A DNA stretch of 59,730 nucleotides from an uncultured Spirochaetaceae bacterium. Lineage in GTDB: Bacteria; Spirochaetota; Spirochaetia; Sphaerochaetales; Sphaerochaetaceae. A program made the position numbers and the translations under genes. Below the pieces are notes generated by a model. The model saw nothing but the letters and a program-made list of their open reading frames with translations. It searched no databases and had not been told where the DNA came from. The stretch spans positions 1 through 59,730 of the forward strand of contig CALXLA010000041.1 of assembly GCA_944389075.1 (NCBI GenBank), written 5' to 3'. Of the stretch, positions 15,077 through 32,718 are shown one piece after another (position 1 is the first letter of the stretch; every line of letters begins with the position of its first letter).

Positions 15077-18000
15077 CAGCACATTCCCATATTTATCCCA
15101 GATCGCACTCCTCCTCATATCCCTGAGATAGATGAGGGTGCATCTGCATTCAATGCCTTTTAGTACTGAAAGCGACTGTGCATATTTCGTGATCTGCCCG
15201 AGATGTTCTTCAGGGGACATGACCCTGTCTGTCTTGAAATCAATCACGAGTGCATGATCCCCTTCATAGACAAGAAGATCCGCAGAACCTTCAATCACCC
15301 GTCCATCATCTGGATAGTAAAATCTGACTTCGCTCTCAGTCTCCCTTCCTTCTACAAGCTCTTTATAGACATCTGATGATATGAATCTCTGCCCTATGGA
15401 ATCTGCATCGCGGCAAAGCTCTGAGTATTCGGAAGCCGAGACATCCCTTACTGCTATATATGAAGGTTTCCTTCCTTCTGCAGCAGCTTCAACGGCCTCA
15501 TGTGCCATGATCCCGAATTCCGTGAAGGACTGATGCGCTGCGATGATCCTGTCAGACGGAATAAATGAGAGCACAATTCCCTCTCTTCCGCTGTTATCGC
15601 TATCAGTCTGAAGAGATGCACGGACGCCCCTCCTCTTCTCCGTATATACTCCTCTGCTATAGACAGCCTTATCATACCATGCGGATGAACCGGAATCGGC
15701 TTCTGTCCTGGTAAGCCTTGGTGCCAATGGAATCTCGCCTGCTTTCAGACAGCTTTCAGGTATGCGATAGAAAAGGCTCTTTGCTGAATTCTGCTTCTTC
15801 ACGCCTGTTATGATGATATGTACCGATGCTCTTGTAAGCGCAACATACAGCAGTCTGTCCCGCTCTGCCTCTTCCCTGCGTATGCGGGCATCATTGAAGA
15901 GTTTTGAGAATGGATGAGCACCTGCATCATCAGGATCAAGCATCAGAAGCGGATTCTTTCCTTCTGCGAAGGCCAGCTTGTTCTTAGCGCTCTGATTCGA
16001 AGGGCCTCTTGCAGAATCAGCAAGGAAGACAACAGGAAACTGCAGGCCTTTCGACTTATGTATCGTCATGATGGACACAGCATCGGAGCCGAAGTGCTGT
16101 ATCGCAGCATTCTCAAGCTTTGAAGAGCTGCCAAGAAGAGGCCTCAGATGATCGAGGAACAGCACAAGCGGCTTCCCTTTCTTATCAAATGCGGCCGCAG
16201 CTTCCCAGAGATAGCTGAAATGGTCTTCATATACTGCGAGATCTGCACGGCTTGCAAGATATGTATGGTATCCGCTCTCATAGTAGATGCCATCAAGTAT
16301 ATGGGAAACCGGCTCTCTTCCGACCATCGCTGATACCTTCCGGTAAAGCGCAGAAAGTGAGCTGAACGCCTGAATGTCTTCAGCATCCTGAAAATCAGGG
16401 ACTGAACTGAAAGCACCTTCGAAGCTTTCATCATCCGCAAAGAGAAGAAGTCCCTTATCGGAGATTCTTGCAAAAGGAGAGCGCAGAAGCGCCATATATG
16501 CAGTTTTGTCATCAGGATATATGAGGCACTGGAGGAATGAATAGATATCGCTGGCGATGGCTTCCGTGGTTATCGAGGAGCTTTCAGGAACGACATATGG
16601 GATATTCCTCATCCTGAACACCTTCTCAAAATCCCTCTGCCCCGCTGTTGTCTGGAGAAGCACCGCTATATCGCCGAATGAAGGCCGCCTCAGTGTCTTT
16701 CCATCCTTGTCAGGCACGAGATAATCATCCCCTGACATCATCTTCTCGATCATATCAGCGATATACACAGCTTCAGATTCGCCAGGCGTTGCATAGTCAT
16801 TGTTCTTGTAAGTCTCATCTCCTTTCTTCGGAGGAGTCAAGAGGGCTGCCTCAATTCTCGGCTTTATCCCGGGAGTCGCATCCCTTGCAGCCATAGGTTC
16901 ATCATCTGCCCAGTAAGATGAGAATGGAAAACCTGTGAACTCCTCTATAAGCCTTTCCTCTGCAACAGGTTCATGATCAGCAGCGCTGAATACAGAAGGA
17001 AACACAGAAGAGAACCAGTCTATCAGGGCAGGCTCCGAACGGTAGTTGTTCCTCAATGAGAGGACATCCCCGCCTATAGCTCCTATATCCTCCTTAAGAC
17101 TTCTGAACACAGAGACATCAGCACCTCTGAAATAGTAGATCGACTGCTTGTCATCACCGACGAAGAACAGCTTGTTGCTGTCGATAGCGGAAAGCGGTGG
17201 TATCCCATCGTTTTCCATTCCATCCTTTTCCGCAAGCAGGAACAGAAGATCCTTCTGCGCGCTGTTGTTATCCTGGAACTCATCGACCATTATGAAGCGA
17301 TAGCGTCTCTTGTAATAGTTTCTGACATCCTTGTTCGTGACAAGAATCATCCTTGAAAGCACCTCTGTATCGTGGAATGAAAGCATTCCCTTGACTCTTT
17401 TCTCTTTCTGAAGTTCTCTTATGAAGCTCTCAAGCACAACCGATAAAGGCTTCGCATATGATGAGATGAGCGGCTCGATATCAATATAGGACGAAGCGGA
17501 GTCAATGGCGGAACGCAATGCCTTGACAGCATCATTCACTTCCTTGTGTGCCTTCTTCCTCAGCTGCTTCAGATCATAGCTGAATGAGACACTCCCGCTT
17601 TCCCTGTATTTCCTCACATCATCACGGATCTTATCGAAGTAAGGATTGTCGGAACAGGCAAGATTCGCATCCTCAAGCTCATTGACTGCTGTTGAAATCA
17701 TCTTATGCGCATAAGACTCCGCAATCCTCGCATAATTGAGCGCTGAGGTTATATTCTGCTCCGCAGAGAATGGAGTCACAACATCGGAGCAGGATGACGC
17801 AATCCATGTAAGCGCCGCAAGCAGATTCTGCTCGGAACAGTAGAATGCGATCTCCGAAAGCGCTTCAGCAACATTCTCATCATCCTGAATGGACAGGAAG
17901 ACCTCCTTTGCCATATCATCGGCATCATCTGACTCAAGAGAAAGGAAATCCCTGGTTATGCCGAATCTCATGCAGTCCGTGCGTGCGATCTCCCCCCAGA

Positions 18001-31200: not shown

Positions 31201-31911
31201 TTATTCTGCAGCTGACACAACTTTATAGATTGTTGTATCACCAGTCGATTGCGGTACTGTCTTATATCCATCAGCTAGGAAGTTAGTCGTGTTGTCCTCC
31301 GACTCTGCAGCATTAGCCGCAGGATCAAAATCGATGAACTCACCACCGCTGACAACAATTGATGCGGTTTCAGCTTCACGGTTTGCATCATATAGATTCA
31401 GCGTAAATGCTGTTCCCTTGGAGGAATGTTCCTGTTTAATCGAGAACTTGCCACCCTTGATTTCAGCACTGCCCTCAAAAACATATACAGCTGAGATGTT
31501 ACCTATGAACTCACCGTTCTCTATGATGAGATTGCCTCCATCAACAACATCAAATGCATAGCAATCGTTCTCGAGTGCATCAATCTTGCCATCTCCAGTC
31601 ACAGTAAGCTCTCCACCTTTCCCGACTGAAATAAGCGACCACTTGTTTACAGTTTCCGTATCCTGCCATATTTGAGAGGCATTTGAAATCGTGTGGCCAT
31701 TCAGATCCAGTGTGACTTTCCTTGTGACACTGAGCACATCCTTTGCATCAATCTTGTCAGTGAGCTCTATGGCACTGCTATCCCCAGCCAATGCAGTTAC
31801 AAGCTCATTATAATCTGAAACCTTGACAGGCTGGGTACTGTCATTACCCGCACATGATGCCATCAGCAGAACAAAAAGCAAGCCTATTGCTGAAATTCTC
31901 AGGACTTTCAT
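31201..31911 (-). CDS. Secreted lipoprotein with beta-helix-like repeats
   Basis: A 236-residue exported lipoprotein. The signal peptide KVLRISAIGLLFVLLMASC ends in a lipobox LMASC with the cysteine as lipid site. The body has short strand repeats typical of right-handed beta-helices: LDLNGHTISNASQI, GGELTVTGDGKI, GGNLIIENGEFIGN, GSAEIKGGKF and VVSGGEFIDF. The ATG at 31911 follows GGGGGA by six bases. No family function can be named. Its promoter contains a poly-G tract (see separate entry), which makes it a candidate phase-variable surface protein. Confidence 0.75.
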   Translation of the reverse strand: MKVLRISAIGLLFVLLMASCAGNDSTQPVKVSDYNELVTALAGDSSAIELTDKIDAKDVLSVTRKVTLDLNGHTISNASQIWQDTETVNKWSLISVGKGGELTVTGDGKIDALENDCYAFDVVDGGNLIIENGEFIGNISAVYVFEGSAEIKGGKFSIKQEHSSKGTAFTLNLYDANREAETASIVVSGGEFIDFDPAANAAESEDNTTNFLADGYKTVPQSTGDTTIYKVVSAAE

Positions 31912-31943
31912 GATATATCCCCCTTTAGAAATACCTACAAAGT

Positions 31944-31974
31944 ATCCTACCCCCCCCCCGTTAAACTTTGTCAA
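31944..31974 (-). promoter_or_regulatory. Promoter with a ten-G tract in its spacer
   Basis: On the minus strand a perfect TTGACA (31974-31969) is separated by 19 bases from TAGGAT (31949-31944). Ten of the spacer bases are an unbroken run of G (31959-31950). A 17-base spacer is optimal, so losing two G would strengthen the promoter and gaining bases would weaken it. This is the design of spacer-length phase variation known from Neisseria porA and of poly-G tracts before Treponema pallidum tpr genes. Confidence 0.7.
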
Positions 31975-32034
31975 TTATTTCCTTCTCAATTTGCTCTGAT
32001 TGTCAGAATTCACACATTGAAGCGTATATATAGC

Positions 32035-32718
32035 ATGAGGAATTACGCATTTGAAACAAGCTACACATCGCTTATGGAAAAGGAAACTGCAGACAAGCCG
32101 AGGGAAAGACTTGAGCGGCTTGGGATCGAGGCATTATCAGACAAGGAGCTTCTGATGCTCCTGATAGGAAGCGGAAGTGCGAAACGGAAAGTCGAGGAGC
32201 TCGCAGATGATCTTCTTTCGAATCTCGACAGCAACCCTAAGCTTTCCGCAGAGGATATAAGGAAGATCCCTGGGCTGGGGACAGCTAAGGCCTCTGCAAT
32301 AGGAGCTGCTCTTGAGCTCGGAAGACGAAGAGTCAGCAGGAAAGCACCATCCATCTCAAATCCTGCAGATATCTATAGGGAGATAAGACATTACTCATCG
32401 AGAAATCAGGAGAGCCTCGTGGTCGTGATGCTGAATGGAGCACATGAAGTTCTTGGAACATTCGTTGCAACTGTAGGGCTGCTGAACAGGACGATTGTCC
32501 ATCCCAGGGAAGTCTATGCACCTGCAATCAAAGAACGTGCGGCAGCCATAGCAATCGCACATAATCATCCATCTGGCAATGTAACCCCATCGGAAGAAGA
32601 CAAGGATGTGACAATACGCATAAAGAAAGCCGGGGATATTCTCGGGATAAAGCTTCTCGATCATCTTGTATTCACAGATGAGAAATACTACTCATTCTTA
32701 GAACATAGATTAATTTAA
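32035..32718 (+). CDS. radC: RadC-family JAMM/MPN+ protein
   Basis: A helix-hairpin-helix domain (IRKIPGLGTAKASAIGAALE) is followed by a JAMM metal site HNHPSG...SEED, in AIAHNHPSGNVTPSEED, and a conserved LDHLVFTDEKYYSFLE end. Despite the name, its role in DNA repair is unproven in the family; JAMM folds are metal peptidases or isopeptidases. I chose the ATG at 32035, preceded by TATATA; TTG at 32017 and ATG at 32074 are alternatives. It is divergent from the poly-G lipoprotein and 19 bases ahead of recQ. Confidence 0.88.
   Translation: MRNYAFETSYTSLMEKETADKPRERLERLGIEALSDKELLMLLIGSGSAKRKVEELADDLLSNLDSNPKLSAEDIRKIPGLGTAKASAIGAALELGRRRVSRKAPSISNPADIYREIRHYSSRNQESLVVVMLNGAHEVLGTFVATVGLLNRTIVHPREVYAPAIKERAAAIAIAHNHPSGNVTPSEEDKDVTIRIKKAGDILGIKLLDHLVFTDEKYYSFLEHRLI

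Follow-up and report, generated by a model that had tools for sequence, protein, structure and literature searches.

We analysed a 59.7-kb stretch of DNA from an uncultured spirochaete (the window), in which a sigma-70-type promoter on the minus strand (31944 to 31974) carries a run of ten G residues between its -35 and -10 hexamers. The preliminary description had placed TTGACA and TAGGAT around a 19-base spacer containing ten Gs, and direct reading of the sequence bore this out. The minus-strand order is TTGACA, AAGTTTAAC, GGGGGGGGGG, TAGGAT, the Shine-Dalgarno sequence AAAGGGGG and an ATG at 31911. The features of the locus are as follows.

31969 to 31974, minus strand: -35 hexamer TTGACA, matching the -35 consensus at 6/6 positions
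31960 to 31968, minus strand: 9-base non-G part of the spacer, AAGTTTAAC, ending at its 3′ side in the conserved (A/T)AC
31950 to 31959, minus strand: G10 tract within the spacer, the predicted slippage site; total spacer length, 19
31944 to 31949, minus strand: -10 hexamer TAGGAT, immediately next to the tract; 4/6 matches to TATAAT; genus form, T A G N C/A T
31919 to 31926, minus strand: Shine-Dalgarno sequence AAAGGGGG, 7 bases 5′ of the ATG
31201 to 31911, minus strand: lipoprotein gene, 236 amino acids, lipobox Cys at residue 20; product predicted to be a beta-rich solenoid, right-handed beta-helix-like
32017 to 32718, plus strand: radC-family gene, oriented divergently from that for the lipoprotein

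The preliminary description had noticed no other run of ten in the window, and in fact no other run of G or C there exceeds 6; the next longest, at 17992, has 6 bases. Under a first-order Markov model, 0.02 G/C runs of ≥10 are expected in the window, and runs of ≥6 are depleted (2 observed versus 9 expected).

The window lipoprotein and its surroundings

The downstream product had been described as bearing a lipobox, and it does: it begins MKVLRISAIGLLFVLLMASC, a signal peptide with lipobox, followed by AGND. The sole Pfam match, to PF20585 (Pectate_lyase_5, an adhesive domain), reached 16.7 bits (E value of 0.0085), below the curated cutoff of 24.3. AlphaFold2 modeling of four relatives gave a beta-rich solenoid with a beta-helix-like fold (pLDDT of 80, pTM of 0.79). 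A Foldseek search with the predicted fold returned no match at an E value of ≤0.001; the plausible weak matches were right-handed beta-helices, namely, PL6 alginate lyases and an SRRP adhesin. From these predictions, we infer that the product may be a small beta-helix surface lipoprotein with a glycan-binding or adhesive role. Next to its gene lie the radC gene, in divergent orientation, and a gene for a MerR regulator. In G061, a genome of the same genus, the gene orthologous to that of the window carries C9 rather than G in its likely spacer (TTGCTA-19-TACAAT; tract at L037:4952-4960).

Poly-G promoters in the same genome, the genus and a second genus

Pattern searches of the 2.23-Mb genome that contains the window (60 contigs) found 18 runs of ≥8 G, 9 of which lie in promoter spacers directly before lipoprotein genes. 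The genome thus has at least nine G-tract lipoprotein promoters: eight with a perfect TTGACA (L043, L045, L046, L047, L048, L049, L050 and L051, the last being the window locus) and L041, where TTGATT-17-TAGAAT precedes a lipoprotein gene. Across this set, the signal peptides are similar (e.g., MKKLLVIALSAMMLFAFTAC) and the mature parts are unlike. A tenth module of the same class of lipoprotein promoter (G000:C36:10553-10583, in L048) keeps a spacer of 19 with an interrupted tract, G6TG3, and is possibly a locked copy. Ordinary TTGACA-TATAAT pairs gave 2 matches in this genome, too few to calibrate spacing.

Other G8 to G11 tracts of the genome (L040, L044, L052, L054, L055, L042 and L039) lie in or beside other genes, which encode an HsdS subunit of a type I restriction system, a type III restriction helicase, glycosyltransferases, a DUF362 protein and a secreted-protein open reading frame (ORF). 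The reading frame of the type III restriction helicase is broken at its tract, and the signal-peptide ORF terminates at its own. HsdS subunits, type III restriction helicases and glycosyltransferases are gene types that are phase variable elsewhere, and these tracts probably mark a set of coding contingency genes. MutS is present in the genome, so a raised slippage rate cannot be argued from its loss.

Across the genus, we searched 48 genomes, one per species, with the pattern TTGACA-N5-13-G7+-TANNNT and with the reversed pattern as a control. The motif occurs at 198 sites in 33 of the 48 genomes, and sister species carry up to 12 such promoters each; the reversed control matched nowhere in the 48 genomes, and a chance origin was rejected on that ground. 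The equivalent with a C tract is rare (6 sites). The sites lie on different contigs rather than clustering at one locus. Viral carriage was also considered and rejected, as the 12 IMG/VR contigs that match have mostly non-lipoprotein genes downstream.

We retrieved 127 distinct sites, own loci included, for detailed analysis; 121 of them have a downstream gene. A lipobox was found in 115 of these 121 genes, while the same test applied to 50 genes of the window gave 3 regex matches, 2 of them credible lipoproteins. The distance from the -10 hexamer to the ATG is mostly 28 to 38 bases. The modal spacer length is 19 (65 of 127 sites), followed by 18 (28 sites), 20 (13 sites), 17 (9 sites) and 16 (8 sites), and tracts range from 7 to 11 G, with 9 at 77 sites and 8 and 10 at 23 sites each. 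Immediately before the tract stands (A/T)AC, with the A and C at 100% in the 70 sites that have a 10-base pre-tract part. Sites of the main lipoprotein class tend to have fewer Gs where the pre-tract part is longer (rho of -0.33, P value of 0.0009), a negative correlation for which C-to-G changes at the tract edge account in part.

The products are diverse. When grouped by sequence, 120 of them fell into 39 groups, and close orthologues in different species were few, a pattern indicating rapid turnover of the putatively switched lipoproteins. The domains found include BspA-type leucine-rich repeats and a beta-helix; most products have none. In a subgroup of 17 with mature N termini like CTQYRFIPFP, spacers are shorter on average (P value of 0.001). 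Members such as L110, L127, L129, L131, L133, L168, L187 and L191 share the mature N terminus C-x-x-Y-x-(F/I/V)-(I/V/W)-P-x-P, their spacers likewise tending to be shorter.

A class-wide pattern search matched 42 of 297 genomes, with no match to the reversed control. Outside the genus of the window, a genus belonging to another family (f24/g69) carries as many as 11 sites, mostly before lipoprotein genes in the loci that were read, and its spacers are mostly 14 to 16 bases long (n = 30: 15 in 12, 16 in 9 and 14 in 5). Its loci L235 to L249 are parallel poly-G lipoprotein promoters with these short spacers and signal peptides such as MRKFAKISAVLAAMVLALAFVGC.

Tract length differences and alternative readings

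Tract length is unequal, by 1 to 2 G, in 7 of the 10 promoter pairs that diverge by less than 12% over ~100 bp; these comparisons are between loci or species. Two loci of one genome (L120 and L122) have identical 101-bp flanks and carry G9 and G10, respectively, and three loci of a different genome (L117, L116 and L114) share the core from promoter to signal peptide, have unrelated upstream DNA and carry G8, G9 and G8. One locus has G10 in one species and G9 in a related one, and an orthologous promoter in the second family (L252 and L253) has G13 with a spacer of 17 versus G9 with a spacer of 13. Any single difference of this kind is possibly an assembly error in a homopolymer. Loci L114, L116 and L117, and likewise L126 and L128, also stand out for near-identical blocks of promoter plus signal peptide beside unrelated upstream flanks, several of them near contig ends; such repetition suggests that the block has been duplicated or recombined.

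The preliminary description had proposed the locus as a candidate promoter switched by slippage. Both parts of that reading, promoter and phase variation, gain strong comparative support from the 8 further lipoprotein promoters of the same genome and the ~200 congeneric sites that the reversed pattern fails to match, as well as from tract lengths that vary among otherwise near-identical promoters upstream of genes that nearly all encode a lipobox. The idea was right but too modest, as the single case appears from these comparisons to be one member of a genome-wide set. We put at about 0.86 the probability that the window promoter is phase variable and belongs to a dispersed, genus-wide set in which each lipoprotein gene has its own poly-G slippage promoter.

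Two observations weigh against this reading: the modal spacer of 19 differs from the usual optimum, and the G6TG3 copy retains the module although its slippage tract is interrupted. If promoters with G-rich spacers simply work at 19, the tract could be a fixed element with a structural role in a dedicated promoter class (e.g., one whose regulator or sigma factor prefers a G-rich, A-form-like spacer) in which length is no switch. The strong conservation of (A/T)AC(C)-G9-TAG around that modal length, the preference for G over C on the non-template strand (198 versus 6 sites) and the interrupted copy, still at a spacer of 19, are consistent with such an element. However, its tracts would not be expected to span 7 to 11 or to differ by 1 to 2 among near-identical promoters, and mixed sequence would be expected instead, since no sequence is less stable than a pure homopolymer. 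In the other family, the modal spacer of the related architecture is 15, and in the genome of the window, classic coding contingency genes also contain tracts. We therefore regard a fixed element as unlikely.

We also weighed a role for the block from promoter to signal peptide as, mainly, a recombination site at which mature domains are exchanged in a cassette type of antigenic variation, with the tract incidental. The unrelated upstream DNA that adjoins near-identical blocks at L114, L116 and L117, the several contigs that terminate in or near the block and the 39 sequence groups among 120 products all point that way. Exchange alone leaves unexplained why the homopolymer, its spacer position and the -10 hexamer persist at most sites though the flanks have diverged, and why a short-spacer version exists in another family; we give it little credence as the main explanation, although recombination at the block may act besides slippage rather than in its place. 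Least credible of all is a coding tract, in which a longer frame from the TTG at 31974 would switch translation on and off. That frame is open through to the ATG in the window (a 257-amino-acid ORF from 31974), with AAGGA upstream of the TTG, but the signal peptide begins at the ATG, which has its own Shine-Dalgarno sequence. Among the 121 sites, the TTG is in frame at 39, the one third expected by chance, and the frame is open at 16, and a coding tract was rejected.

Proposed mechanism and comparison with known systems

Under the slippage reading, slipped-strand mispairing in the G tract at replication would add or remove single Gs, and the distance between -35 and -10 would shift by 1 bp at a time around the sigma-70 optimum of about 17. 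Transcription of the downstream lipoprotein gene would then rise or fall, reversibly and at random. With such promoters scattered through the genome (at least 9 here and as many as 12 in a sister species), each before a different, fast-evolving lipoprotein gene, a clonal population could present many combinations of surface proteins. Slippage within the population, its effect on transcription and surface display of the products are predictions of this model, as is the weak or off state that we would assign to the 19-base spacer at the window locus. The promoter anatomy, the comparison among genomes and the mechanism reported for porA and TP0126 together support promoter strength set by slippage here.

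The modal spacers of the two genera, 19 in that of the window and 15 in g69, fall on either side of 17, the TP0126 optimum (PMC7864442). Both majority states would thus be off-optimum and hence presumably mostly off, although the geometry of poly-G DNA could place the optimum elsewhere. Tentatively, and at somewhat less than even odds, the set may form a stochastic genus-wide regulon: a portable block of promoter and signal peptide, with a slippage spacer, placed on ever-changing lipoprotein bodies. With the majority state off the 17-bp optimum (19 here and ~15 in the other genus), each lipoprotein would be off in most cells and clones would carry sparse random combinations.

In the open-access literature, we found no paper linking Sphaerochaeta with phase variation, and searches there on related terms likewise turned up no description of a comparable spirochaete lipoprotein system. 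Most of what is known of poly-G promoter switching in spirochaetes comes from Treponema pallidum. To this, the present loci would add a large lipoprotein repertoire, dispersed over the genomes of uncultured spirochaetes, and a second version of it in another family. Such diversity of the surface within a population would be hidden in assembled genomes, and the motif provides a sequence signature for locating such repertoires. The natural series of spacers (16 to 20) also offers a handle on the effect of a G-rich spacer on promoter strength.

In Neisseria meningitidis porA, a poly-G tract lies between -35 and -10 and its length sets their spacing (PMC7864442). In T. pallidum, TP0126 likewise has poly-G between -35 and -10, with transcription best at 17; the tprL tract ranges from 7 to 11 in vivo, and the effect of tract length has been measured for both genes (PMC7864442). 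The present promoters share with porA the G homopolymer in the spacer and, putatively, a surface protein as the product; porA is one gene, whereas here there are up to ~12 loci per genome, the products are lipoproteins and the modal spacer is 19. They share with the TP0126 and tpr promoters a spirochaete host and promoter poly-G, but the shared block from promoter to signal peptide and the modal spacer of 19 are undescribed for those genes (PMC7864442). The products also differ, being putative outer-membrane proteins there and lipoproteins here.

The Vlp system of Mycoplasma hyorhinis comprises several lipoprotein genes with a homopolymer in each promoter region and produces combinatorial surface variation; its tracts are poly-A, its genes form one clustered locus and its products also vary in the size of internal repeats. 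Like Vlp, the present system gives each of several lipoprotein genes a promoter tract of its own (9 in this genome and up to 12 in relatives); unlike Vlp, the tracts are poly-G and the genes are dispersed over the genome. With a homopolymer between the -35 and -10 elements of a sigma-70-type promoter, as in porA and TP0126, these loci are best explained by a mechanism of the porA/TP0126 type with a Vlp-like organization.
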